NCBI GenBank assembly: GCA_017610265.1
Contig: JAFCCH010000010.1
Coordinates: 1-45,016, forward strand
Reading direction: 5' to 3'
From: Nitrososphaerota archaeon
GTDB lineage: Archaea > Iainarchaeota > Iainarchaeia > Iainarchaeales > GCA-2688035
DNA length: 45,016 nucleotides
Below, piece after piece: positions 9,801 through 29,434 of this stretch (within the stretch, counting starts at the first letter, position 1; each line of letters starts with the position of its first letter). A program made the position numbers and the translations under genes. The notes under the pieces were generated by a model that was not told the DNA's origin, did no database searches, and saw nothing but the letters and a program-made list of their open reading frames with translations.

Positions 9801-9925
9801 AGAAGAACCATAACGTTATTTGTGGTTATTTTATCTTCGCCTGCATCTGCGGTTATCGCAAAAACACTGGCACTTATTAGAATTAATGATATTAACAGGA
9901 AGGCAAACTTTTTTATCACTCCCAA
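6866..9925 (-). CDS. Large membrane-anchored surface protein with PKD, FN3 and Ig-like domains
   Basis: Signal peptide-like N-terminus; PKD-like CKIDFGDGSAEEDFTDSMTHTFTGADTYTVTLTATDDD; FN3-like VELDWTSVEDNGSSGIEEYIVYRNGSEVARTVNTYYQVTNLTNGTSYDFRVAAVD; acidic helical region; C-terminal TM and basic tail. Track start is TTG at 9925; the in-frame GTG at 9919 is an alternative. Confidence 0.88.
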   Translation of the reverse strand: MGVIKKFAFLLISLILISASVFAITADAGEDKITTNNVMVLLEGTCTDDAEVTECSWEVPAAECTTANPIINGIGTISATSSIEVTCTNIASPYITTLTGKNEIDPNASDNAIITVNENTAPTATEVAITPDLGNTSDELTCNYTYNDNESDAEGTSTFKWFKDTIVEAGETASTLDSSKTAKGEAWKCEVTPVAETGTSPGDLVQSAEVTIVNSDPVASLSGTPDSGVETVEVTFTGSCTDADDDIATCKIDFGDGSAEEDFTDSMTHTFTGADTYTVTLTATDDDAATDTSLEIVTVTAGNAPTVNNKEPSSDVNVLKPTISFDVNDSGSGVDISTLTLFIDGENKTAEANADTVYIGLNVEDDLGNGTGDVNWNFSVDTEAPNVTGIEIDEYYTNDKTPAITVNGLSSGTQIALSCNDSDWKAWQSYSSTVTNFNIYTGNYGCLDGSGGAVTVYLKAKDAVGNESASVNAGTNYDGSPPDRPTLDSAIGNDEEVELDWTSVEDNGSSGIEEYIVYRNGSEVARTVNTYYQVTNLTNGTSYDFRVAAVDSAGNTSDWSNELSETPVNDGSNNNDQDTSTPELFWELPGNNSTVSGMITLKVQAYDDQSSVSMVQFRVDNTPIDTDRTASGERYSIDWNSETVVDGTYTLKATAKNRSGTSNDTTVKTITITTNNGVTTLKIGTDSGDEADAQAALDAADDLKEEAVALIAEIQAFGIEISDEAAELLSDAVDLLDEAQTDFDDEEFEDTEEKAAEAEEKLNELIDMFAAEDYENPVRYVFNKEHLELMLQDLGFSPTLIEEAEAIAETFSASRKLSIKKITDGDSSVYRAIITITVKNDSDETREIKVIEIVPKEFAETASELVGDNYTVLVDDPVLEWTIELEAGEERELSYTLKTDFIADDAEELLISGVINKFSAPPILLEEETEVSKEQFSNQANAGLFALPNLVSLGSWGLLIIAIIAVALVAVNQLGKGEKNNPFDTAVNRSGLSSSFFDRIGSFGKKEEKQPGRKWSFKD

Positions 9926-13713: not shown

Positions 13714-14331
13714 ATGAACAGACTACAGTATTTCGTTTCAAATTTTAGGGGAAAAGTCCTGAATATAGGCTGTTATGACTCAAAATCCTATGATTTAATG
13801 CTTGACTCGGGCTACAAAGACCTTTACGGTCTTGACATTGTTGAAGGGGACTCAAGTAGGAGAATAAGAAAGGGAGACGCCCTCAAAATGAATTTCAAAA
13901 ACGAGTTTGACGTCATAATTGCAGGAGAGCTTGTAGAGCATCTTCATCCAAAGGAAGCAAGCCTTTTTTTGAAAAACTGCTTTAATGCTCTAAAAGAAGG
14001 CGGGGAAATAATTCTTACAACTCCAAACAAGCTGGCTTGGTCAAACAGGCTTTTTCACAAGTTTGACAATGCATCTCCCGCAATGTACCAGGGCCATGTT
14101 CATGTTTTCAAAATAAATGAACTGGAAAATTTTCTTGCTGGCTCAAATTTTGCAGTTGAAGACAGCTTTTGCCTTCCATATTTAAGGGAAGCAAGCCCAA
14201 ACCATTCAGAAATTGTTTACCTTGTTCGAAGCCTTGTTCACTATCTCTTGCCCAAGGGTTTGCAGGAACAGATTGTTATAAAGGCAAAGAAATTAGATGC
14301 AAATGCAAAGCAAAAGAAGGTGAATGAATGA
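13714..14331 (+). CDS. SAM-dependent class I methyltransferase
   Basis: KVLNIGCYDSKSYDLMLDSG; DVIIAGELVEHL; GGEIILTTPNKL. ATG 13714 preferred over the track start 13624. Confidence 0.82.
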   Translation: MNRLQYFVSNFRGKVLNIGCYDSKSYDLMLDSGYKDLYGLDIVEGDSSRRIRKGDALKMNFKNEFDVIIAGELVEHLHPKEASLFLKNCFNALKEGGEIILTTPNKLAWSNRLFHKFDNASPAMYQGHVHVFKINELENFLAGSNFAVEDSFCLPYLREASPNHSEIVYLVRSLVHYLLPKGLQEQIVIKAKKLDANAKQKKVNE

Positions 14332-15179
14332 TTGGACTAAGCTCAAGCTATTATGGGCTGCAAAAGAAAAAAGTTTACGAGTCTGCAAAAAGCGTTTTTG
14401 ACCTTGGCTTTGAAACAGTTGAGTTAGGTGCGGCCCACGGCCCTGAAGAAAACATTTGGGACACTGTGAAAAAAATAAAGCACGACTTTCCAGACAAAAA
14501 TTACACAGTGCACGGCCTCTTTCCTCCGCCTGAACAAAGAATGTGGTTTAATGCAAGCCTTGGCCTGACCAAGCAAAACAATGCAGCAGTTGAAGCATTC
14601 TTCAAAACAGCTGAAATCACTGAGGCAAAAATGGTTTCAATTCATCCTGGCTTCAGGGAAGAAATTATTTGGAAAGAACATGATGAGCCGGAATCAAGGC
14701 CGGCCACTCAAAGAAAAATTCCTGAAGAAAAAGCATGGGAAGGCGTATTCAAAGTAATTGAAAAAAGTTTAAATCTTGCCGAAGACGTTGGATGCAATTT
14801 TGCAATTGAGAATGTTCCAAACATTGCAATTCCGCTTGTTTATTCTCCCAATGACTTTGAGAAAACATTTGAAAAATTTCCTGATTTGAAGCTCTTGCTT
14901 GACTATGGCCATGCCTTATACGACAATGTTTTGCCAATCTTTCTTGACAAGTTCCACAACAAAATTGGACAGGTTCACTTGCATTTTTCAAGGGCTGAGG
15001 CAATCGCCCCAACGGCAGACGAGCACGATCCAATAACCTCTTTTGACCAGGTTAATCCCCTGTTGAAAGTAAAGCAATTCAAGGAAATTCCAATTATTTT
15101 TGAACACTGGCCTAAGACAAAGGAAAGCCAGATTGCTGAGGAAAAGAAGCTAATTGAGAAATTTGAGAGTAAGTTCTAA
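14328..15179 (+). CDS. Sugar phosphate isomerase/epimerase-like TIM barrel (xylose isomerase-like)
   Basis: FDLGFETVELGAAHGPEE; MVSIHPGF; CNFAIENVP; LLLDYGHALY; IGQVHLHFS; IPIIFEHW. Confidence 0.8.
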   Translation: MIGLSSSYYGLQKKKVYESAKSVFDLGFETVELGAAHGPEENIWDTVKKIKHDFPDKNYTVHGLFPPPEQRMWFNASLGLTKQNNAAVEAFFKTAEITEAKMVSIHPGFREEIIWKEHDEPESRPATQRKIPEEKAWEGVFKVIEKSLNLAEDVGCNFAIENVPNIAIPLVYSPNDFEKTFEKFPDLKLLLDYGHALYDNVLPIFLDKFHNKIGQVHLHFSRAEAIAPTADEHDPITSFDQVNPLLKVKQFKEIPIIFEHWPKTKESQIAEEKKLIEKFESKF

Positions 15180-15254: not shown

Positions 15255-16562
15255 ATGAAGGTTGCAGTGATAGGAACTGGTTATGTTGGCCTTGTGGCAG
15301 GCACTTGTTTTGCAGACATGGGAAACGACGTAATTTGTGTGGACATCGACGAGAAAAAGATAAAAACTTTGAACGAGGGAAAGGTTCCTATTTATGAGCC
15401 AGGCCTTGACAAATTGATTAAGAAAAATGTTTCGGCAAAAAAACTTATTTTTACGACAAATTTTGATGACGCAATCAGAAAAAGCGAAGTTATCTTTATC
15501 GCGGTTGGAACGCCTCCAAAGCCAAAGGGAGACGCAGACCTAAGCTATGTTGAAAATGTGGCCAGGGGAATTGCCTCTGTTGCCAAAAAGCCAAAGATCG
15601 TTGTTGAAAAAAGCACTGTTCCGGTCCAAACCTGCAAAAGAATAATGCAGGTTCTTGACTGCAACGAAGGAGATGACAACGGCAAGTGTATCAAACATTT
15701 GGTTGTAAGCAATCCGGAATTCCTAAGGGAAGGAAGTGCAGTTGACGACTTCTTGCACCCTGACAGAATTGTTGTCGGAACAGACGACGAAAAGGCTGAA
15801 AAGGTAATGGACAAGCTTTACAAACCTCTTAATTCAAAGATTCTTTTTACAGACATTCAAAGTGCTGAATTGATAAAGCACGCAAGTAACAGTTTCCTTG
15901 CAACAAAAATCAGTTTTATCAATGCGGTTGCAAATGTTTGTGAAAAAACAGGTGCAGACATTGAAAAGGTTGCAGAGGGAATGGGTCTTGATGATCGAAT
16001 TGGCCGAAACTTCCTCAATGCGGGAATTGGATACGGCGGATTCTGTTTTCCAAAAGATGTTGAAGCCTTTATCAGAATCTCTGACAAGAACGGATATGAT
16101 TTCAAGCTCTTGAAAGAGGTTCAGGCAGTTAACAAGGGCCAGAGAGAACTATTCCTCAAAAAGATTGAGGACTCAATCTGGAACCTTAACGGCAAAACCA
16201 TTGGGGTTTTGGGTCTTGCGTTTAAGCCAAACACTGACGACATGAGGTTTGCACCAAGCATTGATATCATTAATACTTTGCTCGAAGAAGGGGCAAAGGT
16301 AAAAGCCTATGACCCAGAAGCAATGGGCAGGGCAAAAACCATTTTCAAGGACAAGATAGAGTACTGCGACGACATGTATGCAGTTCCAAAGGATGTCGAC
16401 GCCCTTTTGTTCCTAACTGAATGGGATGAGTTTAAGAAAATTGACCTTGAAAAGGTAAAGAAGATGATGAAGCAGCCATTTGTCTTTGATGGACGAAACA
16501 TGTTCAATCCAAAGGACATGAGGGCAATGGGCTTCAAGTACGAAAGCATTGGAAGGCTCTAA
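15255..16562 (+). CDS. UDP-glucose 6-dehydrogenase family
   Basis: MKVAVIGTGYVGLVAGTCFADMGNDVICVDID; NPEFLREGSAVDDFLHPDRIVVG; GYGGFCFPKDVEAF. Confidence 0.93.
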   Translation: MKVAVIGTGYVGLVAGTCFADMGNDVICVDIDEKKIKTLNEGKVPIYEPGLDKLIKKNVSAKKLIFTTNFDDAIRKSEVIFIAVGTPPKPKGDADLSYVENVARGIASVAKKPKIVVEKSTVPVQTCKRIMQVLDCNEGDDNGKCIKHLVVSNPEFLREGSAVDDFLHPDRIVVGTDDEKAEKVMDKLYKPLNSKILFTDIQSAELIKHASNSFLATKISFINAVANVCEKTGADIEKVAEGMGLDDRIGRNFLNAGIGYGGFCFPKDVEAFIRISDKNGYDFKLLKEVQAVNKGQRELFLKKIEDSIWNLNGKTIGVLGLAFKPNTDDMRFAPSIDIINTLLEEGAKVKAYDPEAMGRAKTIFKDKIEYCDDMYAVPKDVDALLFLTEWDEFKKIDLEKVKKMMKQPFVFDGRNMFNPKDMRAMGFKYESIGRL

Positions 16563-16564
16563 AG

Positions 16565-17302
16565 ATGCAGGTAATCATTCCGGTTGCAGGATATGCCACA
16601 AGGCTCTTTCCCCTGACAAAAGACAAGCCAAAGGCCTTGCTTGACGTTAAGGGAAAGACAATCCTTGAGCACATTCTGAAACGGATTGAAGACCTTCCAA
16701 ATATTTCAAGCATTTCCATTGTAAGTAATGCCAAGTTCTTTTCTCACTTTGACGACTTTGTCAAAGGCTATAATGCAAAGGTTTCAATAAATGTTTTGAA
16801 CGACGGCACAACAAGTAATGACGACAGGCTTGGGCAGATTGGCGACATTCAGCTTGCAATTGAAGAACAGGGAATTAACGAGGACTTGCTGCTGATTTCA
16901 GGAGACAACTTGTTTAACTTTAGCCTAATGCCTGCCTATAATTTTTTTAAGGAAAAAAATGCAATTGTAAACGCCTTGTATGACATAAAGGATTTGGAGG
17001 CTGCAAAAGAGCTTGGAGTAATGTCAATAGACCCTGTTTCAAGCATTGTCACAGACTTTGAGGAAAAGCCGGTTGAACCAAAGAGCACAAATGTTTCACT
17101 CGGCATTTACTTCTTTCCAAAGGATTCTGTCAAGGAAATAAAGGCCTTTTTGGACAGGGGCGGCAAGCCAGACAAGATAGGCTATCTAATGGCAGAACTA
17201 ACCGGAAAAAAGGCCCTTTTTGGCTTTGTTTACGAGCAAAAATGGTTTGACATAGGTGTTCCAATTGCTTTGGAGAAGGCAAGGAACGAATTTGAGCCAT
17301 AA
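16565..17302 (+). CDS. Sugar nucleotidyltransferase
   Basis: MQVIIPVAGYATRLFPLTKDKPKALLDVKGKTILEHIL. Confidence 0.9.
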   Translation: MQVIIPVAGYATRLFPLTKDKPKALLDVKGKTILEHILKRIEDLPNISSISIVSNAKFFSHFDDFVKGYNAKVSINVLNDGTTSNDDRLGQIGDIQLAIEEQGINEDLLLISGDNLFNFSLMPAYNFFKEKNAIVNALYDIKDLEAAKELGVMSIDPVSSIVTDFEEKPVEPKSTNVSLGIYFFPKDSVKEIKAFLDRGGKPDKIGYLMAELTGKKALFGFVYEQKWFDIGVPIALEKARNEFEP

Positions 17303-17348
17303 GCCCAATTAAATAATTTTTGTTGCTTTATTATTATAGGTTTTTTTA

Positions 17349-18287
17349 ATGAAAACAATTGTTATCACAGGCGGAGTAGGCTTTATCGGAAGCCACTTAT
17401 GCGAACGACTTTTGAAAGAAGGCAATAAGGTAATTGCAGTTGACAACTTTGTTACAGGCAACAAGGCAAATGTTAATGCCTTTCTCTCAAACGAAAACTT
17501 TTCACTAATTGAACACGATATTACAAAGCCCCTGGAGATTGAAGGAGAGGTTGACCAAATTTTCAATATGGCAAGCCCTGCTTCCCCGGTTGACTTTCCA
17601 AGAATTCCAATTGAAATTCTTTTGACAAACTCTCTTGGAACAAAAAATGTTTTGGATTTTGCTGTTTCAAAGAATGCAAGGATTTTACAGGCTTCAACAA
17701 GTGAGGTTTACGGAAATCCTTTGGAGCACCCTCAAAAGGAAACATATTTTGGAAATGTCAATACAATTGGGCCAAGAAGCTGTTATGATGAAGGAAAAAG
17801 GTTTAGCGAAGCCCTTCTACTGGCCTACAAAAGAAAGAAGAACGCAGACATTCGAATTGTAAGAATTTTCAATACTTATGGCCCAAGAATGAGGCCAAAG
17901 GACGGCAGAGTAATGCCAAATTTCATTAATCAGGCATTGGAAGGCAAGCCATTGACTGTTTACGGCGACGGAAGCCAGACAAGGTCTTTTTGTTTTGTGT
18001 CAGATGAGGCAGATGGCCTGATAAAGCTAATGAATTCTAATTATAACAAACCTGTTAATGTTGGAAATTCAAATGAGATGACAATAAAGCAGCTTGCAGA
18101 ACTTGTGATAAAGCAAATTGAAAGCAAAAGTGAGATTGCTTTTGAGCCATTGCCAGGAGACGACCCTGCAAAGAGAAAGCCGGACATTTCCCTTGCAAAG
18201 AAAGAGCTTGGATGGGAACCAAAAATAAGCCTTGAAGAGGGCTTGGCCAAAACAATTGATTGGTTCAGGCAAAGCGCGGGCAAGTGA
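17349..18287 (+). CDS. NAD-dependent SDR, UDP-glucuronate decarboxylase (UXS)-like
   Basis: VITGGVGFIGSHLCERL; FNMASPASPVDF; TIGPRSCYDEGKRFSEAL; RIFNTYGPRMRPKDGRVMPNFI. Confidence 0.87.
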   Translation: MKTIVITGGVGFIGSHLCERLLKEGNKVIAVDNFVTGNKANVNAFLSNENFSLIEHDITKPLEIEGEVDQIFNMASPASPVDFPRIPIEILLTNSLGTKNVLDFAVSKNARILQASTSEVYGNPLEHPQKETYFGNVNTIGPRSCYDEGKRFSEALLLAYKRKKNADIRIVRIFNTYGPRMRPKDGRVMPNFINQALEGKPLTVYGDGSQTRSFCFVSDEADGLIKLMNSNYNKPVNVGNSNEMTIKQLAELVIKQIESKSEIAFEPLPGDDPAKRKPDISLAKKELGWEPKISLEEGLAKTIDWFRQSAGK

Positions 18288-18292
18288 TCTAC

Positions 18293-19723
18293 ATGCCTTT
18301 AAAAATATTGCTGATTCATCCCCCTGCCGATATGTCGGTCAAAAAGGTTCGCATTGAAAAGTCCGCAATTGAAAAATTACACGCTGTAACCGCCCCATTG
18401 GGCCTTGCATATCTTGCGGCAATGGTGAAAGACCTTGATGTAAAAGTTCAGATTTTTGACGCAAACCTTTTTCAGGCTTCCCTTGAAGAAATTGGTGAGG
18501 AAATCAAAAAGGCAAAGCCAGATCTTGTTGGCATTGGAGTAACCTCTGCCTCTGGAAAGGCAGGTGGCCAAATTGCAGACCTTTCAAAGGAACTGGCGCC
18601 AAACGCTCTCACTCTAGTTGGAGGGCCACACATTATTGCAACAGGAACTGAGATGATGGAAATCTTTGCAGGAGTTGACATTTTAATTCCGGGAGATGCT
18701 GAAGAGTCTTTCAGGGAGCTTGTTGAAACACTTCTTGCAAAAAAACCTTTGGCAAAGAGCAGGGGCATTATCTTTAGAGACAAGAAAGGCAAGTTTGTAA
18801 AGACCGAGCCGATTCCTTTGAAGCACTTGGATGATTTGCCAATGCCTGAGTGGGATTTGCTGCCTCCGCTGGACAAGTATAATTTCCAGCCCGCAACTTA
18901 CAGGCGACATCCCCATTCTTTTGTGGTTGCAAGCAGGGGCTGCCCTTACAGATGCGTGTTCTGTCATATCAGCAGGTTCAGGCACCAGGTAAGGGTCAGG
19001 TCTCCTGAAAAGATTGTTGAAGAAATAAAGATTTTATATGAAAAATATGGAATCAGGGAATTCAGGTTTGGAGACGAAATATTTACGTTGAACCACAAGT
19101 GGTGCACTGAAATTTGTGATAGGATAATTAAGGCTGGGCTTGATATTTCCTGGACTTGTGACACAAGACCTGACCGAATGTCTGCAGAGCTTGCCAAAAA
19201 GCTTGCTGAAGCAGGCTGCTGGGCTATTTCAATTGGAGTTGAGTCAGGCTCTCAAAAGATTCTTGACAGAATAAAGAAAGACATTACTTTGCAGCAGGTG
19301 GTTGACACAGTCAAGTATGCACATGATGCAGGCATGATTGTAAGGGCTTTCTTCATGCTTGGCTTTCCGTTTGAGACAAGGAATGACATTGAGCAAACAA
19401 TTGACTTTGCAAAAAGGTCAGGCATTGACTTTTCCCAGTTTAGTTACGTTATTCCATTCCCTGGCACTGAAATTTATGACATTTGCCAGGAAAAGGGCAT
19501 TTATGGGAAATACGGTTGGATGGAGTATGATGCATCAGTCTACACAACCCCAACCTGCTTGCCTGACGGCATAACCAAGGAAGAAATGCAGGTTTACTTC
19601 AAAAGAGCTTACAGGGAATTCTATTTCAGGCCAAAGCTTTGGATTAAGGTATTGCTCAGCATTAGAAGCATGACTGATATCGAACGTTACTGGAAGGGCT
19701 TTTGGGGCCTTATTCATGCCTAA
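18293..19723 (+). CDS. B12-binding-domain radical SAM protein (paralogue 1)
   Basis: N-terminal cobalamin-binding-like domain; SRGCPYRCVFC (CxxxCxxC); C-terminal AYREFYFRPKLWIK. ATG 18293 preferred over the track start 18260. Confidence 0.9.
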   Translation: MPLKILLIHPPADMSVKKVRIEKSAIEKLHAVTAPLGLAYLAAMVKDLDVKVQIFDANLFQASLEEIGEEIKKAKPDLVGIGVTSASGKAGGQIADLSKELAPNALTLVGGPHIIATGTEMMEIFAGVDILIPGDAEESFRELVETLLAKKPLAKSRGIIFRDKKGKFVKTEPIPLKHLDDLPMPEWDLLPPLDKYNFQPATYRRHPHSFVVASRGCPYRCVFCHISRFRHQVRVRSPEKIVEEIKILYEKYGIREFRFGDEIFTLNHKWCTEICDRIIKAGLDISWTCDTRPDRMSAELAKKLAEAGCWAISIGVESGSQKILDRIKKDITLQQVVDTVKYAHDAGMIVRAFFMLGFPFETRNDIEQTIDFAKRSGIDFSQFSYVIPFPGTEIYDICQEKGIYGKYGWMEYDASVYTTPTCLPDGITKEEMQVYFKRAYREFYFRPKLWIKVLLSIRSMTDIERYWKGFWGLIHA

Positions 19724-19765
19724 ACATTAAGCGAAAAATCAGATTTTAAGAAACAGGCAAACAAA

Positions 19766-20485
19766 TCAGATTTTGCCTTCTTTCTTCATTCTTTCCCTGA
19801 ACTGGAAAATTTCTTTTACATAGTCCTTTGTGTCAGAAAAAATCTTAACAGTTGACTTGGTCTCGGGATTTTTTTCAAATTCAACAGGAATTTCCTTTAT
19901 CTTCAGGCCCTCGTAATAGGCGATTGCCATTATTTCCGTGTCCCAAAACCAGTGTTTGTTCTTTGTCTGTGCCAGGATTGGAGCAATCTTTTTCTTGTTA
20001 AAAAATTTACAGCCTGACTCAGTGTCTTTTAACTTAATTTTCAAAAGAACCCGTGTAAACTTGTTGTAGCCTCGGCTTAACACAAATCGATGAATGTTTT
20101 TCCAAGTAATCTTGGTGTGCCTGTCTCCAATTGAAACGTCAAAGCCGTTGTCAATTGCTTCAACAAGTTTTGGAATGTATTTTTCGCTTACCTCCAAGTC
20201 AATGTCAAGGAAGCCGACAATTTCTCCCCTGGCTTTGGCAATTGCGTCTTTTACCGTCTGACCACGGCCCTGGTTGACTGTGTGAAAGTAAGCCTTGGCA
20301 TTTGAATTTTCTGCGGCAATCTTCCTGATGTTGTCTGCCGTTTTGTCTGTGCTTTTGTCGTCGAAGAGAATTATTTCAAACGGCCTGTTCATTTTGCCAA
20401 GCAAGTTCTCCAGCCTTTTGACTGCCTTGAAAATAAATTCTCCTTCATTGTAGCATGGGATTGTGAGGCTTACCATTTTCTTCAT
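19766..20485 (-). CDS. GT2 family glycosyltransferase (dolichyl-phosphate sugar synthase-like)
   Basis: VSLTIPCYNEGEFI; EIILFDDKSTDKTADNIR; GEIVGFLDIDLEVS; WFWDTEIM. Confidence 0.88.
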   Translation of the reverse strand: MKKMVSLTIPCYNEGEFIFKAVKRLENLLGKMNRPFEIILFDDKSTDKTADNIRKIAAENSNAKAYFHTVNQGRGQTVKDAIAKARGEIVGFLDIDLEVSEKYIPKLVEAIDNGFDVSIGDRHTKITWKNIHRFVLSRGYNKFTRVLLKIKLKDTESGCKFFNKKKIAPILAQTKNKHWFWDTEIMAIAYYEGLKIKEIPVEFEKNPETKSTVKIFSDTKDYVKEIFQFRERMKKEGKI

Positions 20486-20494
20486 TTAATCACA

Positions 20495-21688
20495 TTATTT
20501 TTTGTAAAAGTCAAGCACTTTTGTAATGGAGGTTATTACGTCTTCAACATCCTGGTCTGAAAGTTTTGGAGACAAAGGCAAAGAAATTGTCCGGTCTGAA
20601 ATAAATTTCGCGTTTGGAAACTGCTCTTGCTTAAATCCAAAAGTGTCTATGTAATACCTGTGCAAATGCAGTGAAATAAAGTGAATGCCTGTGCCTATGT
20701 TCTCTTTGTGAAGGGCTTGTTGCAAAAAGTTTCTGCCCTTTTTCAGTTTTTCCAAATCAAGCAGTGGAGTATAAAGATGCCTTGCGTGCCTTGTGTTCTC
20801 CTCGGTTTTTGCAGGAAGGAACACAGGCAAGTCCTCAAATGCCTCATTGTATTTCTTCCAGATTTTTTCCCTTTTCTTTAAATTTTTTTCAACCCTTGCA
20901 AGTTGGTGAATGCCGAGAGCTGCCTGCATGTCCATCATGTTAAATTTGTAGCCTGGAAAAACAACTTCGTAGTGCTTAAAGCCCTCGTCGCTGTATCTTT
21001 GCCATGCTCCCTTGCTTAAACCATGTAATGCATATTTTTCAATATCTTCAGCCCACTTACCATTGTTTGTGGCAACCATTCCACCTTCTCCGCATACAAC
21101 GTTTTTTGTCGCATAGAAAGAGAACGCCGTTAAATCTGAAATATTTCCAATCTTTTTGCCCTTGTATTTGGCTTCAACTGCATGGGCAGCGTCTTCTATT
21201 ACAAGCAGGCTGTTGTCTTTGGCAATCCTTTGGATTTCGTCCATGTTACAGGGCCTTCCTGCAAGGTGTACTGGAATTATTGCTTTGGTTTTCTTTGTAA
21301 CTGCTTTCTCAACAAGGTTTGGATCAATGTTCATTGTGTTCTTTTCAACATCAACAAAGACCGGCTTTGCCCCTGCGTGCAGTATAACATTTGCTGTTGA
21401 GGAAAATGTAAGCGGTGTTGTAATGACTTCGTCACCTGGCTTTATTCCTGAGACAATCAATGAGAGAAACATGCCTGCTGTGCAGCTGTTCAATGCTTTT
21501 GTGTGCTTGCAGCCAATGTATTCTTTAAAATCTTTTTCAAAGCGCAGTACTTTTGGGCCTGTTCCAATCCAGCTTTTCTTTAAGCTGTCGACAACCTCGT
21601 CTATTTCTGGCTGTAGTATTTCAGGGCTGCCAAAGACAAGATATTCTTCTCTTACAGGCTTTCCTCCTTCTATTGCAGGTTTTTTCAT
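20495..21688 (-). CDS. DegT/DnrJ/EryC1/StrS family PLP-dependent sugar aminotransferase
   Basis: GDEVITTPLTFSSTANVILHAGAKPVFVDVE; VIEDAAHAVEAKYKGKKIG; AFSFYATKNVVCGEGGMV with PLP lysine. Confidence 0.93.
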   Translation of the reverse strand: MKKPAIEGGKPVREEYLVFGSPEILQPEIDEVVDSLKKSWIGTGPKVLRFEKDFKEYIGCKHTKALNSCTAGMFLSLIVSGIKPGDEVITTPLTFSSTANVILHAGAKPVFVDVEKNTMNIDPNLVEKAVTKKTKAIIPVHLAGRPCNMDEIQRIAKDNSLLVIEDAAHAVEAKYKGKKIGNISDLTAFSFYATKNVVCGEGGMVATNNGKWAEDIEKYALHGLSKGAWQRYSDEGFKHYEVVFPGYKFNMMDMQAALGIHQLARVEKNLKKREKIWKKYNEAFEDLPVFLPAKTEENTRHARHLYTPLLDLEKLKKGRNFLQQALHKENIGTGIHFISLHLHRYYIDTFGFKQEQFPNAKFISDRTISLPLSPKLSDQDVEDVITSITKVLDFYKK

Positions 21689-21845
21689 TGAGTCCTTTCC
21701 TAAATTTGTGTTTTTTGCTTAAGCATTACTTACTCTGTGAATTTAATGAATTGAGCTAAAAAGCATTAAAAATCATAACGTTATCAGAATTGTACCAAAC
21801 TTTTTTGCGATGCTTTTTATTACTATTGTCTTAATGGATTTTTAT

Positions 21846-22364
21846 ATGCCGGTCAACGAAATGCCCTATGATCACTGGAATCCGCTTGTAAGGTTTTACT
21901 TTAATGGCATCCTAAAGAAGGCCGTTAAACTTGCAGACCTTAAGACAGGGGAAACAGTGCTTGACTTTGGCTGCGAAAGCCAACAGCTCAAGAAATTTAT
22001 TCCAAAGGGTGTGAAATATGTGGGATTTGACATTGTTCCGGGAAATTCAGATCTCAAGGATTATAGGCAGGCAAGGCCAAACGTTGTTTTTGCTTTAAGC
22101 GTGTTGGAACACCTTGAGGAAAAGGAACTTGAATATACTTTAAATGACTTTAAGCAAATGGGTGTCAAAAAGCTTGTTGTAAGCTTGCCGACAGAACACT
22201 TCATTTCAAAGATTTTGGCCTGGCTTCATGGTTTTAGTGAAGAACACGAGGACGAGCACAAAACAAACTGGAAAAGCGTTTACAAAATTCTTTCAAGCAG
22301 GTTAAAGCAGGAAAAAACAGCCGGCTTTTACACAATGCAAAAAATGAGTGTCTGGGCTCTTTAA
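21846..22364 (+). CDS. SAM-dependent methyltransferase-like protein
   Basis: LKTGETVLDFGCESQQLKKFI; YVGFDIVPG; VFALSVLEHLEEKEL. Start ambiguous (track start 21810). Confidence 0.72.
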   Translation: MPVNEMPYDHWNPLVRFYFNGILKKAVKLADLKTGETVLDFGCESQQLKKFIPKGVKYVGFDIVPGNSDLKDYRQARPNVVFALSVLEHLEEKELEYTLNDFKQMGVKKLVVSLPTEHFISKILAWLHGFSEEHEDEHKTNWKSVYKILSSRLKQEKTAGFYTMQKMSVWAL

Positions 22365-22412
22365 TTGAAAACAATTCTAACAGATAATTTAATGGTGAAT
22401 TTTTAGGGGTGA

Positions 22413-23885
22413 ATGATTATGTCTGAACAACTTTTGTCCTCGGTAAAAAACAAGACAATTTTTGGAATGATTGCCTTATTCCTTGTTTTAATGGTTGCAA
22501 ACCTTCTTCTTTCAAGGCCCAATCCAGATGAAGGAATTCATATGATGGGCGGGTGGCTTTTGCTGAATGGAACAGTCCTTTACTCAGAGCTTTTCTCAAT
22601 GTATGCTCCTGGAAGCTATTTTATTCTTGCGGCATTCTATTCCTTGTTTCCTGCAGACTTTGTTGTAAGTAGGCTTTTGATGCTTGCAGTAAACCTTGGT
22701 TCTCTTGTAGCATTCTTTGCCTTGTGCAGAAAGCTTTTGGACGAAAGGGCTTCCTTGATTGCGTTATTTTTCTACGTGGTCTGGAGTGTTTTTACAATTT
22801 CCTGGAATGTTCTAATGGAACCATTTATGACACTTTTTGCAATTCTTTTGGTTTACTTTGTCTTAACCTATCTTGAATCAAAAAAGCTTCAGGATCTTGC
22901 TCTTGCAGGCCTGTTTATTGCAAGCATTGTCATGATGAAGCAGACAATGCTGTTCTTTTCAACAGCCGCATTGTTTTTCCTAATCATTAAGGCAAGGCCT
23001 TCCCTCAAAGAGTATGCGGTTTTAGGAGTTTCCTATGCCCTGCTTCCCTTGCTTTTTCTTTACTACCTTTTTTCAAACAATGCCTTTTTTGACTTTGTTG
23101 ACCAGGCAATTCTTTACAACCTTGCCCACTCTTCGCTTTTTGCTTTTAGGTTTCACCTTGGCTGGATTGCGGTAACTGCCTTGTTTGTCTCGGTCTTTGC
23201 ACTTGCTGCTCTTTTGTTTCTTTCAAAAAAGCTTAGAATCAAGAAGGACAAGGGTCAGCTTTTGTTTATTTGGATTGTTTTAACTCTTCCAACCTTGCTG
23301 CCTGTTCTTGGCTGCTGCCACCACCACCTGCCTTTGGTGCCTGGCTTTGTGATTCTTTTCACCCTTGCCTTTGACTCTGTTTTCTTCAAAGGAGACGGCT
23401 TTAGCCTTAAGGGCTTTGATGCAAAGCCTTTACTGAAAGGATTTTTGGCTTTGGTTTTTGTGGCAAGCATTGTGGGTTCAGGTATTTACCTTTCACAATA
23501 CTTTTTCCAAAATGATTTCGAGGACTTGTTTGAAGTAGCTGAATTTGTTAATGAAAATAGTTCTCCTGAGGACAAAATTCATGTAACCTACTGGGATGAA
23601 GAAGTTTACTTCTTTGCCTTAAGAAAGCCGGCCACAAGATACCTTTACCACCCATTTTTGTTTGAGGCAGAGGAAAAGGCATTTCAGGCAGAGGTTGTTC
23701 AGGCACTTGAGGATGAAAAAGCAATTTTCGTGGTGGACTTTGCAAGAGACGATGAACCCATGCAAAGCGAGGGAGAAATGTCAGAATATATCCTTGAAAA
23801 TTACTCTCTTGTAAAAACACAGGAAATGGATCCTGCTCTCTACAACACTTTTAACTATGGCTTTGTTTTGCAGAGAAACGAGTAA
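22413..23885 (+). CDS. Polytopic glycosyltransferase, GT39/ArnT-PMT-like
   Basis: RPNPDEGIHMMGGWLLLNGTVLYSELFSMYAPGSYF plus many TM segments. Preceded by aggggtga. Confidence 0.82.
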   Translation: MIMSEQLLSSVKNKTIFGMIALFLVLMVANLLLSRPNPDEGIHMMGGWLLLNGTVLYSELFSMYAPGSYFILAAFYSLFPADFVVSRLLMLAVNLGSLVAFFALCRKLLDERASLIALFFYVVWSVFTISWNVLMEPFMTLFAILLVYFVLTYLESKKLQDLALAGLFIASIVMMKQTMLFFSTAALFFLIIKARPSLKEYAVLGVSYALLPLLFLYYLFSNNAFFDFVDQAILYNLAHSSLFAFRFHLGWIAVTALFVSVFALAALLFLSKKLRIKKDKGQLLFIWIVLTLPTLLPVLGCCHHHLPLVPGFVILFTLAFDSVFFKGDGFSLKGFDAKPLLKGFLALVFVASIVGSGIYLSQYFFQNDFEDLFEVAEFVNENSSPEDKIHVTYWDEEVYFFALRKPATRYLYHPFLFEAEEKAFQAEVVQALEDEKAIFVVDFARDDEPMQSEGEMSEYILENYSLVKTQEMDPALYNTFNYGFVLQRNE

Positions 23886-23908
23886 CGGCTTTTCTTTAAG
23901 AAAAAGAA

Positions 23909-24637
23909 TTAGTCTCGCCCAAGCTTTCTTAATTCAGTGAGCCTTCTTTTCTTCAAGCTTAAAACGCTTCCAAACAGGCTGAGGGCTGCTGAAAAAATGT
24001 TCAAAGTACTTCCTCTAAAACCGTAATCACCCTCGATTGGAACTTCCTTTACACTGAAGCCAAGCCATTCACACACCATTAATATTTCAGTGTCCCAAAA
24101 CCATTGCTCGTCTTTTACAAAGGGCAATGCTTTTTTGATTGCTCTTTTTTTGAATCCCTTCATGCCACCCTGATAATCCCTTATCTTTCCACCAAGGATT
24201 ATTCTGACAATTAGGTTGTAGCTTCTTCCCAAAAACTTTCTCGTAAAAGGGCTTTTGAATTCAGACTTTGGATTGTGCTTGCTTGTAATTGCAATGTCGT
24301 AGCCTGACTGGATTTTTTTAACAATTTCTCCAATATATTTAGGCCCTATTTCAAGGTCTGCGTCTGTGTAAATTTGAATTGCTCCCTGTGCCTTTCCGAA
24401 GCCAATTGACAAAGCCCTTCCCTTGCCAACTCTTTCAGCCCTGTAAACAACACTTACTCTCTTGTCCTTTGCCGCAATTTCTTTTGCAACTTTAAGAGTA
24501 TTGTCGGGATTTTTTCCGGTAACAATCAGAATTTCGTAGTCTTTTGAAAAGCGCTGTATTTCAAGGCTTACGTCCTTGACGGTTTTTTCCAAAAATCTTT
24601 CAGATTTATAAGCCGGAATTACTACTGACAACATCAT
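23909..24637 (-). CDS. GT2 family glycosyltransferase
   Basis: LSVVIPAYKSERFLEKTV; GAIQIYTDADLEIGPKYI; WFWDTEILMVCEWLGF. Confidence 0.88.
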   Translation of the reverse strand: MMLSVVIPAYKSERFLEKTVKDVSLEIQRFSKDYEILIVTGKNPDNTLKVAKEIAAKDKRVSVVYRAERVGKGRALSIGFGKAQGAIQIYTDADLEIGPKYIGEIVKKIQSGYDIAITSKHNPKSEFKSPFTRKFLGRSYNLIVRIILGGKIRDYQGGMKGFKKRAIKKALPFVKDEQWFWDTEILMVCEWLGFSVKEVPIEGDYGFRGSTLNIFSAALSLFGSVLSLKKRRLTELRKLGRD

Positions 24638-24686
24638 ACTGCTTCACTATCTATGAATATTAAAAACCTTTAAATGATTTGCCTGT

Positions 24687-26345
24687 CTATGGGCAGGTTT
24701 CTCTTGCAAAAACAACAAGCATGTCATACTTTCCGTTCTCAATTGTTCTGCATCTCTTAAATTTCTGTAATGCTTGATTTAATTCATTCTCAGGCTCTTC
24801 TAAGAGCTCTGGCACAACCAAAGCATAGTCTGCTTTCTCAAAATCGCTTGGTTCTGCAATCACAAGTTTTCTTTTCTCTTGAAAAAGGGCTTCAACACTT
24901 GCATCAGGTGTGAAAATTTTGTCAAACAACGGCTTTCTGATTGACAAATCATATTTGTAAATTTCTTTGTAATAATTTGCTGTAAAATATGCCTCTTTAG
25001 TGTAAACAATAGAGTCTTCCGGAATGCTTGTAACAAATTCTGAAATTCCCTTAAAGTCGTGGACCATGACAACATTAATGCTTCCAACAAGGAAGACTGC
25101 CACAAGAAGGCCTGCAATCATTTGCCTTGTTCTTGGAAATTTCTTTATTGAAGCAAGCATAAAGCTTACAAGCATTATCGCAGGCAACTCGTATCCAAGT
25201 GCCCTGTTGGTCCTCTTCATGGTTAAAACACTAAAGAAGAACACAAACGCTCCGATTCCAATTAAGAGAATAGATGCTAGTTCATAATTTTTGCTCTTAA
25301 ATGCATGGTATGCCGCAAATGGCAATGCAAACGCAAGCAAAAGCATAAAAAACGGCGAGTAAAAGAAGTTCATTACCTTAAACAGGAACAAAAAGTCCTC
25401 GCTTGGAAGACCCTCTGTTTCAACAGCCTCTGCAATCGGTGCGCTCATATGGGCTTCTGTCAAATCCCATCTTTCCCCTCCACCTCTTTCCTCCCAACCT
25501 CTTGCACTCTCAAACTGGTTTAGGATAAGAGGAGTGTAAAAAAGCACTACTGTAATTATAAGTGTTGCAAAGATTGCAACATTTTTTTTGTTCTCCTTTT
25601 TCAAAAGCTTTTCTTTGTTAATCCAGGCAATTCCTGCAAAGAATGGAATAATAATGAGGGTTGGAAACCTTGTTGCAAAGGCAAGCCCTGCAAGTGCTCC
25701 TGCAAGAGGCAAAAGGTTTGGCTTTTTTTGGGCTTCGAAGAAAACTGCAAGTGAGGCAAATGCAAGGAACCATCCAAGCGGTCCAAGGAATGACGTGGCT
25801 GACATAAAAACATTGTATGGGGAAAACAGAATCAATGCAAATGCAAGAAAGCCTGCATTTTTGTTCCACTTGCGTCCTATGAAAAGGCCGACAAATGCAA
25901 GCCCAACCATTGCAAGGCTTGAAACAAGTTCTCCTGCGATGTTTGGCGCAAGGCCTGTAACAAAAATTGTGGCTGCTGTTGTCAGCACAAATAAGGGAGG
26001 GGGAGCCTGCATCAAATAAGGAATTCCCAAGCCGAATTTGGCAATCAAAAGAACAGCTGCGATGGCAATTGTTGCCTTAAAACTTCTTTTGATAATTATA
26101 AGATATGCCGAGGCGATTGCAATTACCGCAAGAACAACTGCTACAAGGGGGGCGCTCCATAAAAGATAGGCAATTTTGTATGCATAAGTTACAAAGAAGA
26201 CCTCGTCTCCGCTTATGTCTGTTGAATTGATAAAGAAAAGCCTCAAAGCTATTCCAATAAATGTAATTACTGCAAGGCCGATGAATGTCTGCCTGTCTTC
26301 CTTGTAAAATTTCTTTAGCTTGTCAGCCACGTCCTTTAAGCACAT
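24687..26345 (-). CDS. Polytopic glycosyltransferase, GT39/ArnT-PMT-like
   Basis: ALRLFFINSTDISGDEVFFVTYAYKI, at least 10 hydrophobic segments. Confidence 0.82.
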   Translation of the reverse strand: MCLKDVADKLKKFYKEDRQTFIGLAVITFIGIALRLFFINSTDISGDEVFFVTYAYKIAYLLWSAPLVAVVLAVIAIASAYLIIIKRSFKATIAIAAVLLIAKFGLGIPYLMQAPPPLFVLTTAATIFVTGLAPNIAGELVSSLAMVGLAFVGLFIGRKWNKNAGFLAFALILFSPYNVFMSATSFLGPLGWFLAFASLAVFFEAQKKPNLLPLAGALAGLAFATRFPTLIIIPFFAGIAWINKEKLLKKENKKNVAIFATLIITVVLFYTPLILNQFESARGWEERGGGERWDLTEAHMSAPIAEAVETEGLPSEDFLFLFKVMNFFYSPFFMLLLAFALPFAAYHAFKSKNYELASILLIGIGAFVFFFSVLTMKRTNRALGYELPAIMLVSFMLASIKKFPRTRQMIAGLLVAVFLVGSINVVMVHDFKGISEFVTSIPEDSIVYTKEAYFTANYYKEIYKYDLSIRKPLFDKIFTPDASVEALFQEKRKLVIAEPSDFEKADYALVVPELLEEPENELNQALQKFKRCRTIENGKYDMLVVFARETCP

Positions 26346-27150
26346 TTAAATCACGCGTCCGCCTTTTTCCCTGAACTCTTTCCAGTGTTCTTTTGTTGGC
26401 CAGCTATAATAGCTTGGCTTGTTTCCCTTGTCAACTTTTGAAAAGTCCTGGTTTCTCACCTTATCAAGGGCCTCAAACAATGCTTCAACACTTTCATCAA
26501 AGCACTTTGAATAGAGTTCGTGCAATGTTTCGTTTCCGTGAATTGGAACCTTTCTTTGCGCCAAAACTTTTCCTTTGTCAATCTCGTGTTCCATTGTGTG
26601 AATTGATGTGCCTGTAAACTTTTCCCCTTTTCTAAAGGCCTGTAAGACAGGAAGCACTCCTCCATATGATGGGAGAAGGGCAGAGTGCCTGTTGAGGCAG
26701 CATATCTTTGGCAATGCTAAAATTTCCTTGCCGAAAATCCAATGCTAAAATTTCCTTGCCGAAAATCAATGGGTTTGAACTGATTATTACGTCTGGCTCA
26801 AATCCCCTCATTTTGAAAATGTATTCCTTTTTGTTGATGTCTTCTTTTACCCTGAAAAAAGGAATGTGAAAAAATTCAAGCACTGACTTTACCGAATAAA
26901 ATTTTGAGTTGGCATTCTTTTGTTGAAAGGCATTTTTTGACTTCATGTCCGCTTTTGTCCAAGCCATTTTTGCAAGCTCTTCAGGTGTAAAGTAATTCAA
27001 ATGCTTTAAGAAATATCTTTCAATATTGTTTTTCTTTGGAACCTTTGTTACAAGCGCGACTCCGACAACCTTGTCCTTGGTTCGCCTGAGAAAATCCGCA
27101 AAAAATTCAGGATGGTAAATGCCCTCGTCCAAGACAAAGAAAAGCCTCAT
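26346..27150 (-). pseudogene. Methionyl-tRNA-formyltransferase-fold sugar formyltransferase split by a 28-bp tandem duplication
   Basis: Track ORFs 26632..27150 and 26346..26714 fuse when one 28-bp copy is removed: SSNPLIFGKEILALPKICCLNRHSALLPSYGGVLPVLQ...GTSIHTMEHEIDKGKVLAQ. 805-28=777 nt, 258 codons plus stop. Asn/His/Asp catalytic residues are present in the restored frame. Confidence 0.88.
26712..26767. repeat. Exact 28-bp tandem duplication inside a coding region
   Basis: caatgctaaaatttccttgccgaaaatc at 26712..26739 and 26740..26767. Confidence 0.97.
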
Positions 27151-28037
27151 TTTTTTACACCGCCAAAATCTTCTACAAGCCTTTTGAATGAAACGCTTTT
27201 CACAGTTTTAAACTCTTTCTTTCTCCACTCAGAGTAATAAAATTCCGGAAATCCCTTTCCGTCCTTCCAGTGAACGGCTTCTTCCTTTTTTGCAAAGCCA
27301 GGGTGAAACAAGGCCTCCACTACTGCATTTCTTTCCCAAATTTTTGGCAAAGCAGCCCTTACAACTTCCTCGCTCATGTTTCCTGCAAAAATGTTTCCAA
27401 TAAAGTAATCATTGCTTTTTATTCCGAGCTTTTCAAGCTTTTGCTTTTTTCCGGCAGACAACTGGTTTAGAAGAACGTGCTTTGCAATGTTTAATCCGAA
27501 ATAATTTTCCAAAAAGTTTGCCCTGTCAAGTGCAAGGAAGAACGGTTCTTTTGGAATTCTGATATAGGAAATTCCCAATTCTTTTCTAAGCTCTAAAATT
27601 GTTTCAAACACAAAGGGAATCATGTGGAAATGACGGTGACTGTCAATGTTTATTTTAGCATTTTTGGGCAAAACTTTTCTGACCTTTTCAACCTGGCTTG
27701 CAATCTCTTTCTTTGTTTCATGCTTCAGCCTTTTTTTTCCTGCCTTGCCTGCTGAAAGCCATGCAAACCAAAGGCTTTGAAAGCTGTGCTTAAAATATCC
27801 TTTTTCGTCAACAAGAAGACCTTTATTTGCCCTTAGGGCTTTTCCTTCTGCAAGGTTTAGGTGGATGCCAAGCCTAAGGCCCTTTCTCTTCTTGAATTCC
27901 TTTATTGCATAGTCAAATGCATAGCCGTTTGGCACAATGCTTGTGCTTGTAAGGCTCCCTTTGTCAGCACATTCGAGTATTTTGTCCGAAACGCCTTTTG
28001 AGAAGCCAAAGTCGTCAGCATGTATTATTAGCTTCAT
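27147..28037 (-). CDS. ChbG/YdjC-like carbohydrate deacetylase
   Basis: MKLIIHADDFGFSKGVSDKIL; GIHLNLAEGKAL; INIDSHRHFHMIPFVFE. ATG 28037 preferred over the track start 28091. Confidence 0.9.
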   Translation of the reverse strand: MKLIIHADDFGFSKGVSDKILECADKGSLTSTSIVPNGYAFDYAIKEFKKRKGLRLGIHLNLAEGKALRANKGLLVDEKGYFKHSFQSLWFAWLSAGKAGKKRLKHETKKEIASQVEKVRKVLPKNAKINIDSHRHFHMIPFVFETILELRKELGISYIRIPKEPFFLALDRANFLENYFGLNIAKHVLLNQLSAGKKQKLEKLGIKSNDYFIGNIFAGNMSEEVVRAALPKIWERNAVVEALFHPGFAKKEEAVHWKDGKGFPEFYYSEWRKKEFKTVKSVSFKRLVEDFGGVKK

Positions 28038-28159
28038 AGCCAGATATTCTTGGACAGCGAAAGCCCTAAAAAAGCTCTTTTCGTGGTACAATTCTCGCAG
28101 AGTAAGCGCTTTAAATCCCCTTAGGCTTTATTTCTTTAGACGCTGTTTTGTTGGTTAAA

Positions 28160-29434
28160 ATGGACACAATTTGCATTATTGGACTTGGATATGTGGGTCT
28201 GCCATTGGCATGCCTTTGTGCTGAAAAGGGTTTTAGGGTTAAAGGCCTTGACTTAGACAAAGGCATTGTTGAAAGCACAAACAAGGGAATTTCCCACATT
28301 AAGAACAAAAGCCTTGAAGCCAAGGTAAAAAAGCTCAAAGGAAAAATCGAGGCCTTTTCAGAGCCAAACTGCATTAAGGGATCAAACATTGTAATTGTAT
28401 GCGTTCCAACGCCGGCAATTGGCTCAAAGCCTGATTTAAATCCTTTGAAGAGAGCTTCTTCAACCATTGCAAAATTCCTTGAAAAAGGGCAGCTTGTAAT
28501 TGTTGAGTCAACAATCTATCCTGGAACAGTGCAGGAAGTTGTTCAGCCAATTCTTGAAAAAACAGGATTAAAGGCAGGAACAGACTTCTTCCTTGGACAC
28601 TGCCCTGAAAGAATTGATCCTGGCAACACAGTCTTTTCACTTGAAAAAATTCCAAGAGTGCTTGCATGCCTTTCAGAAGAGGGGACAGGCAAAGCTGAGA
28701 AATTTTACAAATCAATTATCAATGCCAATATTCTTGTGTTAAGCAGTGTCAAAAGCGCTGAAGCAGTAAAGGTTGTTGAAAATACTTTTAGGGACATTAA
28801 CATTGCTTTTGTAAACGAGCTTGCAAAAAGCTTTGACAAAATGGAAATTGACCTTAAAGAAGTAATCAAAGGTGCTTCCTCAAAGCCCTTTGGCTTTATG
28901 CCATTTTATCCAGGGCCAGGGGTGGGCGGACATTGCATTGCCCAAGATCCTTACTATCTGATTGCAAGAGCCGAGGAAGCAGGCTTTCAGCACAGTTTCC
29001 TGAAACTTGCTCGTTCAATCAATGAGAGCATGCCGTCTTATGTTTCACAGCTTGTGGAAGGTGCGTTGCTTAAATCAGGCGCAAAAATTAAAGGTGCAAA
29101 AGTTGCGGTCCTAGGTCTTTCATACAAGCCAGATGTTGACGACACAAGAAAAAGCCCTGCTTTGGAAATAATTAAGTTGCTTGAACAAAAGGGCTGCAAA
29201 ATAAATGTTTTTGACCCATGGGTTTTGGAGGACGGCAATGTTTCCTCTCTTGAAGAGGCATTGGAGAATGTTGACGCAATTGTCCTTGCAACAAATCACA
29301 AAATTTTTATTGAAAAGCTAAAGCCCTCTTTCCTGAAGGGGAAAAATATAAGGGTTGTAATTGACACAAGGAATGCACTTGACAAATTTGGAATTGAAGC
29401 AGAAGGCATTCTTTACAAGGGAATTGGAAGATAG
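28160..29434 (+). CDS. Nucleotide sugar dehydrogenase (UDP-N-acetylhexosamine/ManNAc dehydrogenase, WecC-like)
   Basis: MDTICIIGLGYVGLPLACLCAEKGFRVKGLDLD; STIYPGTVQEVV; GHCPERIDPGN; GVGGHCIAQDPYYL. ATG 28160 preferred over the track start 28148. Confidence 0.92.
   Translation: MDTICIIGLGYVGLPLACLCAEKGFRVKGLDLDKGIVESTNKGISHIKNKSLEAKVKKLKGKIEAFSEPNCIKGSNIVIVCVPTPAIGSKPDLNPLKRASSTIAKFLEKGQLVIVESTIYPGTVQEVVQPILEKTGLKAGTDFFLGHCPERIDPGNTVFSLEKIPRVLACLSEEGTGKAEKFYKSIINANILVLSSVKSAEAVKVVENTFRDINIAFVNELAKSFDKMEIDLKEVIKGASSKPFGFMPFYPGPGVGGHCIAQDPYYLIARAEEAGFQHSFLKLARSINESMPSYVSQLVEGALLKSGAKIKGAKVAVLGLSYKPDVDDTRKSPALEIIKLLEQKGCKINVFDPWVLEDGNVSSLEEALENVDAIVLATNHKIFIEKLKPSFLKGKNIRVVIDTRNALDKFGIEAEGILYKGIGR

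Follow-up and report, generated by a model that had tools for sequence, protein, structure and literature searches.

Does the stretch between positions 15255 and 28037 of this archaeal contig encode a counterpart of Arn, a bacterial pathway of antibiotic resistance? The preliminary description of the window (the whole stretch of DNA analysed, 45,016 nucleotides) proposed that it does, with a YdjC-family enzyme in place of ArnD. Gene families were assigned with Pfam and NCBIfam profile searches, and the genome carrying the window (G000) was compared with a sister genome (G002) and further related genomes (other G numbers). The genome is archaeal, with ribosomal protein L21e present, and the gene classes named previously lie close to where they had been placed (UDP-glucose dehydrogenase or UGDH, a UXS-type SDR, DegT aminotransferase, GT2s, PMT_2/GT39, Formyl_trans_N and YdjC); uppS is likewise confirmed (PF01255, 201 bits). 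The inventory holds for these genes but left out a nucleotidyltransferase, a B12-binding radical SAM protein and a methyltransferase-like protein. Two genes just outside the stretch, UGDH2 and a Wzx-type flippase, are also missing from that list.

Conserved core and variable insert

Comparison with related genomes identifies UGDH, nucleotidyltransferase and UXS as a conserved core block. Orthologues of UGDH1 (15255–16562, plus strand; PF03721/00984/03720, TuaD-like at 584 bits; 62–81%) adjoin UXS in relatives, with the nucleotidyltransferase (16565–17302, plus; PF00483, 106 bits) kept between the two, and UXS itself (17349–18287, plus) has orthologues in 40 of the 85 genomes searched. The upstream member of the block is a xylose-isomerase-like TIM-barrel protein (14328–15179, plus; PF01261), also found upstream of UGDH1 in G003, G004, G005, G006 and G030. 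The core further includes UGDH2 (28148–29434, plus), a second UDP-sugar dehydrogenase resembling UDP-ManNAc dehydrogenase (NF040825, 341 bits, below the cut-off of 750), and a Wzx/MurJ-type flippase (29443–30876, plus; PF01943). UGDH2 follows UXS in G002 and G010 and precedes the flippase in G003 and G010, and the flippase is kept after UGDH2 in relatives.

Between UXS and UGDH2 lies an insert (18288–28147) that is absent from G002, in which 30 bp separate the two genes compared to 9.9 kb in the window; the flanks share 78% and 74% DNA identity between the two genomes. The insert contains genes for radical SAM, GT2, aminotransferase, methyltransferase, GT39, GT2, GT-C, formyltransferase and YdjC proteins, the first being the B12-binding radical SAM gene (18287–19723, plus; PF04055+PF02310). 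The locus is made up of two layers, a conserved core and a strain-variable accessory cassette of about 10 kb, and is not one pathway. The GC content of the insert is flat (0.39–0.42) and gives no signal of recent transfer, an explanation that we dropped on this basis. We suggest that sugar cassettes in the UDP-sugar core locus are exchangeable in this archaeal lineage, and that a set of adjacent enzymes can therefore resemble a known pathway but not constitute it.

Comparison with Arn and dideoxyhexose enzymes

The SDR at 17349–18287 scores 372 bits to human UXS1 versus about 100 to ArnA, falls below the NCBIfam cut-offs for ArnA (116, cut-off 777) and for the bifunctional 4-keto-pentose/xylose synthase (102, cut-off 294), and has all of the T-S-E and Y-x3-K active-site residues. 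Judged by its sequence it is of the true UDP-xylose-synthase type and not an ArnA-type decarboxylase. Both this and its place in a core block that also occurs on its own count against an Arn route. GT2a (19766–20485, minus; PF00535), which resembles polyprenyl-phosphate-sugar synthases and lies 9 bp behind the aminotransferase gene, scores 60 against the ArnC family (cut-off 529), and hydrophobic windows number zero in both GT2a and GT2b (23909–24637, minus; PF00535, 98 bits) compared to two in ArnC. A scan of 30 window proteins gave no polysaccharide-deacetylase match, as would be sought for the NodB-type deformylase ArnD.

The DegT-family sugar 4-aminotransferase (20495–21688, minus; PF01041, 418 bits) scores 362 against ArnB (cut-off 631; E. 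coli ArnB itself scores 739) and 350 against PseC (cut-off 423.5), whereas the aminotransferases of G003 and G008 exceed the PseC cut-off (432 and 440). In a tree it falls within its own archaeal clade, whose joining to ArnB lacks strong support. On these scores it is intermediate between ArnB and PseC, passing neither cut-off. A GT2a homologue (47%) directly follows the aminotransferase in G016, forming the same pair as in the window, while in G017 the aminotransferase adjoins a 42% homologue of the methyltransferase-like gene (21810–22364, plus; PF13489, just under cut-off).

A true archaeal Arn-like route would have UXS leak UDP-4-keto-xylose, followed by ArnB-like amination, formyl protection, GT2 loading, YdjC deformylation and GT-C transfer. 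All of these enzyme classes lie inside 13 kb, and the aminotransferase has ArnB as its nearest match in the PDB (269 bits) and, in the arrangement known from arnBC, a GT2 behind it; in addition, the title of Polizzi 2012 (cited in PMC12820599) indicates that human UXS and ArnA have in common a shunt able to release a 4-keto sugar. We nevertheless regard this route as very unlikely. UXS belongs to a core that exists without the aminotransferase, and UXS feeding the aminotransferase was rejected as a conserved link because the orthologues of the two lie apart in G005, G016, G017, G052 and G058; the ArnA, ArnB and ArnC cut-offs are all missed, the formyltransferase is frame-broken, and its pairing with YdjC recurs nowhere else among the genomes examined. 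The gene set does resemble the bacterial arn operon for L-Ara4N in its list of enzyme classes and in having ArnB as the nearest solved structure to its aminotransferase. It differs in having UXS for the ArnA decarboxylase and a broken formyltransferase, in the lack of a NodB-type ArnD, in that ArnE/F were not seen, and in its spread over several transcription units on both strands. Homology of the set to Arn was rejected on the UXS, ArnB and ArnC tests together with synteny, and membership of the 4-keto-pentose route, as originally proposed, is not supported by the sequence comparisons.

The same aminotransferase scores leave room for a route to a 4-amino-4,6-dideoxyhexose, in which a 4,6-dehydratase encoded elsewhere in the genome would feed the aminotransferase, the formyltransferase would make a permanent 4-formamido sugar (PseC/VioF-type), and YdjC would be an independent trimming enzyme acting without a lipid carrier. 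Clusters for pseudaminic and legionaminic acids and for such hexoses combine PseB/PseC, or RmlB, with a DegT aminotransferase and a sugar N-formyltransferase, and occur in archaeal relatives: in G008, G028, G030 and G031 a DegT aminotransferase lies no more than 5 kb from a sugar-type formyltransferase, accompanied by SDR dehydratases, and the G008 genes are part of a PseB-PseC-NeuB-like-SpsF-like cluster. The genome G000 encodes three candidate 4-keto-sugar dehydratases (RmlB, over its cut-off, a PseB-like and a LegB-like enzyme). The window shares the aminotransferase and formyltransferase with these clusters, but contains no 4,6-dehydratase; moreover, the conserved SDR near the aminotransferase in G005 and G016 has a 4-epimerase-like S-S-I-A-(V/A)-Y-G motif, and the adjacency of bacterial YdjC genes to polyprenyl-phosphate-type transferases (see below) would go unexplained. 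We consider this route rather unlikely.

The formyltransferase and YdjC genes

An exact 28-bp tandem duplication (26712–26767, minus; copies 26712–26739 and 26740–26767) splits the formyltransferase into two frames, and the gene was searched as two separate pieces. Its assignment to the Formyl_trans_N family stands for the downstream frame alone (26346–26714, minus; PF00551, 71 bits), which holds the N..H..D catalytic region; the upstream, out-of-frame piece (26632–27150, minus) gives a weak ArnA_N match and 14.8 bits to a formyltransferase HMM, and the frame break may be an assembly error. The 4-bp overlap with YdjC (27147–28037, minus; PF04794, 157 bits) is confirmed. In none of the other genomes examined did we find formyltransferase and YdjC as a pair, nor at 80 bacterial loci carrying the same YdjC subfamily, where none of 2004 ORFs was a formyltransferase (a scope limited by truncated contigs; the piece from the window served as positive control). 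The preliminary description had itself named such an outcome as refuting. Our literature search found no paper on YdjC with formyltransferase, or on ChbG with formyltransferase and glycosyltransferase. It is highly improbable that the pair protects a polyprenyl-phosphate sugar of the archaeon transiently with an N-formyl group and then deprotects it, YdjC being a deformylase without homology to ArnD and the 28-bp duplication switching the formyltransferase on and off.

The model of YdjC (pLDDT 91) matches the ChbG fold (E 1e-14), and its metal-site residues D8, D9, H59 and H134 are invariant in 18 homologues; the intact site in this fold, and the same-strand run with GT2 and GT-C genes (28037–23909), are both as expected of a NaxD-type enzyme. 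The polytopic member of that run (24687–26345, minus) has no Pfam match and is assigned to GT-C by a low-confidence model (mean pLDDT 68) that matches STT3/AglB and, slightly behind, ArnT (E 1.6e-4). Homologues of this protein occur in G019, G028 and G029, directly behind a GT2 in the latter two. A further polytopic transferase of GT39/PMT_2 type (22413–23885, plus; PF13231, 52 bits) has 10 hydrophobic windows.

Only one other YdjC, shorter and in an unrelated context, occurs in the phylum. In bacteria the same subfamily directly adjoins an ArnC/GtrB-like GT2 or a GtrII gene at 56 of 80 loci; the closest homologues (Desulfobacterales, Campylobacteraceae) have no adjoining GT2 or GT-C gene. Single-sequence scans of genome and viral contigs with YdjC gave no match, nor did a two-sequence alignment against viral contigs. 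A bacterial member of this family is already known to deacylate an amino sugar on polyprenyl phosphate, as ArnD does: NaxD is a YdjC-superfamily deacetylase of undecaprenyl-phosphate-GalNAc (PMC11279074). By analogy with this relative, the archaeal YdjC probably deacylates an amino sugar borne on a lipid carrier. The amino-sugar and lipid-carrier theme of the initial proposal is supported by the bacterial loci and the NaxD precedent, as is an ArnD-like position for YdjC, although not within an Arn set.

YdjC and the radical SAM protein score best in NCBIfam against HpnK (119 bits) and HpnJ (194 bits), respectively, which could suggest lipid head-group remodelling whereby a GT2 adds GlcNAc to a lipid, an HpnK-like YdjC deacetylates it and an HpnJ-like B12/radical SAM enzyme rearranges it. 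Both scores are far under their cut-offs (233 and 578), BchE scores about the same for the radical SAM gene (192), and several similar genes occur in the window and in relatives without YdjC. With such low specificity we rejected this explanation, which is extremely unlikely.

A candidate accessory glycosylation cassette

The reading we favour, at somewhat above even probability, is that the insert is an accessory glycosylation cassette specific to the lineage and including a NaxD-like step, set in a conserved surface-glycan core locus. The core enzymes (UGDH, nucleotidyltransferase, UXS, UGDH2, Wzx) would provide a glycan on the cell surface or on proteins with UDP-glucuronate, UDP-xylose and a HexNAc-uronate, the lipid-linked form of the glycan being flipped by the Wzx-type flippase. 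Within the cassette, GT2b probably attaches an N-acylated amino sugar to a polyprenyl phosphate that stems from the UppS-type synthase. YdjC would then deacylate the sugar while it is on the carrier, and transfer of the free amino sugar outside the membrane would fall to the GT-C protein. The aminotransferase-GT2a pair would make and load a 4-amino sugar, the 4-keto precursor being supplied not by UXS but by a 4,6-dehydratase encoded elsewhere in the genome; such a sugar would be N-formylated by the formyltransferase, which is, however, frame-broken in the assembly. Gene families, the two layers, their variability and the bacterial neighbourhood of YdjC with polyprenyl-phosphate-type transferases are observed, whereas the substrates, order of steps and carrier are those we infer for the cassette.

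We counted for this cassette the core without it in G002, the rarity of YdjC in the phylum, the bacterial GT2/GtrII adjacency and the NaxD precedent, together with the YdjC model and metal site, the GT-C fold, the GT2 genes preceding its homologues, the recurrent pair in G016 and the other 4-keto sources in G000. Counted against it were the broken formyltransferase separating YdjC from GT2b and the GT-C gene, the closest YdjC homologues without such neighbours, and the low confidence of the GT-C model.

The proposed GT2b-YdjC-GT-C steps would follow the logic of FlmF2-NaxD-FlmK in the Francisella/Acinetobacter lipid A galactosamine pathway (ArnC-like FlmF2, NaxD and FlmK, the last acting as an ArnT-like transferase), and would be analogous, not homologous, to ArnC-ArnD-ArnT. 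The likeness is one of superfamily and gene neighbourhood, YdjC sharing a run with a GT-C transferase and a GT2 of polyprenyl-phosphate type, with deacylation expected on the lipid carrier. In contrast to that pathway, the host is archaeal and has no lipid A, a formyltransferase gene is interposed, the GT2 lacks membrane helices and the GT-C protein is distant from ArnT. Members of this mainly bacterial YdjC subfamily that lie beside polyprenyl-phosphate-type GT2 or GtrII genes are candidate carrier deacylases, and NaxD-like deacylation on a lipid carrier may therefore extend beyond the lipid A case. The GT2-YdjC and GtrII-YdjC pairs of gut Clostridia and Lachnospiraceae belong to the same subfamily (26–41% identity) and likewise lie beside transferases, but differ from the window in having neither formyltransferase nor UXS block. 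At four Phascolarctobacterium loci an ArnT/PMT gene is found near YdjC.

Conserved UXS core and variable insert

The genes named in the preliminary description are present at the same or close coordinates by window gene calls and family searches, on one 45-kb contig of an archaeal bin (1.28 Mb, 82% complete). The reading we favour is that of an accessory cassette for polyprenyl-phosphate amino sugars in which one step is a deacylation like that of the bacterial YdjC-superfamily enzyme NaxD, set within a conserved UDP-GlcA/UDP-xylose glycan locus. Membership of the Arn pathway, which had been proposed, is rejected on the features tested (a UXS-type SDR, a missed ArnB cut-off and GT2s without the helices of ArnC).

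The best solved relatives of the SDR (UXS, 17349–18287, +) are human UDP-xylose synthase entries (369–372 bits), ArnA entries reaching only about 98–101 bits. Its T-S-E and Y-x3-K active-site residues are common to UXS and ArnA. NCBIfam scores fall short for both ArnA (116 vs a cut-off of 777) and a bifunctional 4-keto-pentose/xylose synthase (102 vs 294). An archaeal UDP-xylose synthase of a different type, Mth373, has been described structurally (PMC12820599).

Close UXS matches (E < 1e-60) occur in 40 of 85 genomes searched, at 55–81% identity with few exceptions. The usual order in relatives is TIM-barrel gene, UGDH1 (15255–16562, + in the window), nucleotidyltransferase, UXS (G003, G004, G005, G006, G030), and is kept in G002 without a directly adjoining TIM-barrel gene; UGDH2 and a Wzx-type flippase follow the block in G002, G003 and G010. 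Only 30 bp separate UXS from UGDH2 in G002, with which the window aligns at 78% up to 18258 and again from 28171 at 74%, having 9.9 kb extra between, and in G003 and G006 other genes fill this site. From this comparison we conclude that the variable site carries the aminotransferase, GT2s, GT-C genes, formyltransferase and YdjC as cargo. That these genes lie close to UGDH and UXS is therefore in itself no evidence of a common pathway. GC content shows no sign of a recent foreign origin for the insert.

Aminotransferase and glycosyltransferases

The closest solved structure to the DegT-family aminotransferase (20495–21688, −) is ArnB (269 bits), but it misses the NCBIfam cut-offs for both ArnB (362 vs 631) and PseC (350 vs 423.5). 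Since E. coli ArnB, as a reference control, scores 739 and 366 respectively, the window enzyme is about equally distant from the two. A 25-row tree places it in an archaeal clade with proteins of G005, G058, G052 and G017, without strong support for a relation to ArnB or the PseC-type pair. The G005 orthologue (76% identity) follows a GT2 and an SDR which bears the 4-epimerase-like motif S-S-I-A-(V/A)-Y-G and is 79% identical to an SDR on another contig of the window genome. A 47% homologue of GT2a (19766–20485, −) lies 6 bp behind a C-terminal aminotransferase piece in G016, in agreement with the 9-bp gap between the two genes in the window. UXS was absent as a neighbour at every orthologous place examined. 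The window genome also encodes a dTDP-glucose 4,6-dehydratase (above cut-off), a PseB-like and a LegB-like enzyme, each of which could supply a 4-keto sugar.

Elsewhere in this genome (locus L084, contig C54, 14475–17469) a PLP aminotransferase-like gene adjoins SpsF-like cytidylyltransferase and aldo-keto-reductase-like genes, with a PseB-like gene nearby (identities read by eye from N-termini); this is possibly a nonulosonic-acid-type cluster.

The polytopic gene at 24687–26345 (−; TRANSFERASES) has no Pfam match. Its predicted structure (mean pLDDT 68) matches AglB/STT3 and ArnT (E 1e-5 to 1e-4); of the GT39/ArnT-like assignment, a GT-C fold is therefore likely on this model, but ArnT specifically is not established, AglB/STT3 matching as well. 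GT-C homologues directly follow a GT2 in G028 and G029, with no formyltransferase or YdjC adjoining, and GT2 plus GT-C thus looks like the stable unit. Unlike ArnC, GT2a and GT2b (23909–24637, −) have no C-terminal membrane helices.

YdjC and the formyltransferase

The YdjC protein (27147–28037, −) belongs to a mainly bacterial subfamily (26–41% identity), with D8, D9, H59 and H134 invariant across 18 aligned homologues, and its predicted structure (mean pLDDT 91) matches ChbG (E 1e-14). Among 87 genomes of the phylum there is one other YdjC protein (G030), shorter and in unrelated context; weak, partial matches occur in 6 of 245 genomes of a second archaeal phylum. In bacteria YdjC directly adjoins a same-strand ArnC/GtrB-kind GT2 or GtrII glucosyltransferase at 56 of 80 loci, often with a few-base overlap, and at four Phascolarctobacterium loci an ArnT/PMT-type gene lies one or two genes further on. 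A formyltransferase model that finds the window's own piece at 2e-24 found none at these 80 loci (2004 ORFs), a count limited by truncated contigs.

NaxD deacetylates undecaprenyl-phosphate-GalNAc, after which galactosamine goes to lipid A (PMC11279074). As it acts after polyprenyl-phosphate loading, the idea of YdjC in the position of ArnD is sound as an analogy, and the window enzyme may work likewise on a loaded sugar; this known bacterial precedent has an N-acetyl substrate. A GT2, YdjC and polytopic membrane proteins also occur in a phage entry (L100, MT838305.1, an unverified 'Bacteriophage sp.' gut scaffold) that resembles a bacterial chromosome fragment.

The formyltransferase-fold gene has a Formyl_trans_N match in its downstream part only, and lies in two frames rather than a single ORF. 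An exact 28-bp unit is repeated in tandem within it (26712–26739 and 26740–26767) and, 28 not being divisible by 3, shifts the frame. This repeat may be genuine biology or an artefact of assembly, with artefact, pseudogene and slippage switch as the possible readings. A formyl-protection cycle is possible, its basis being a single genome with this broken gene. Sugar-type formyltransferases in G008, G028, G030 and G031 have a DegT aminotransferase within 5 kb, that of G008 sitting in a PseB-PseC-NeuB-like-SpsF-like cluster (NeuB and SpsF by eye from N-termini), and on this gene context we favour formamido sugars as probable end products in the lineage over a transient protecting group.

Surrounding genes

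UGDH2 (28148–29434, +) is UDP-ManNAc-dehydrogenase-like (NF040825, 341 bits, below cut-off), and relatives keep it close to UXS and Wzx. A carbamoyltransferase (1076–2746, PF02543/PF16861) has homologues in glycan regions of relatives, and the gene for a probable surface protein of 1019 aa with PKD, Big_7 and fn3 domains (6866–9925) precedes the glycan locus. Three B12-binding and one SPASM radical SAM protein (18287–19723, 30881–32308, 33534–34910, 34903–35982) are encoded in an 18-kb stretch of the glycan locus, and similar genes occur in many relatives. The contig end (44924–44990) carries degenerate, A+T-rich tandem repeats.
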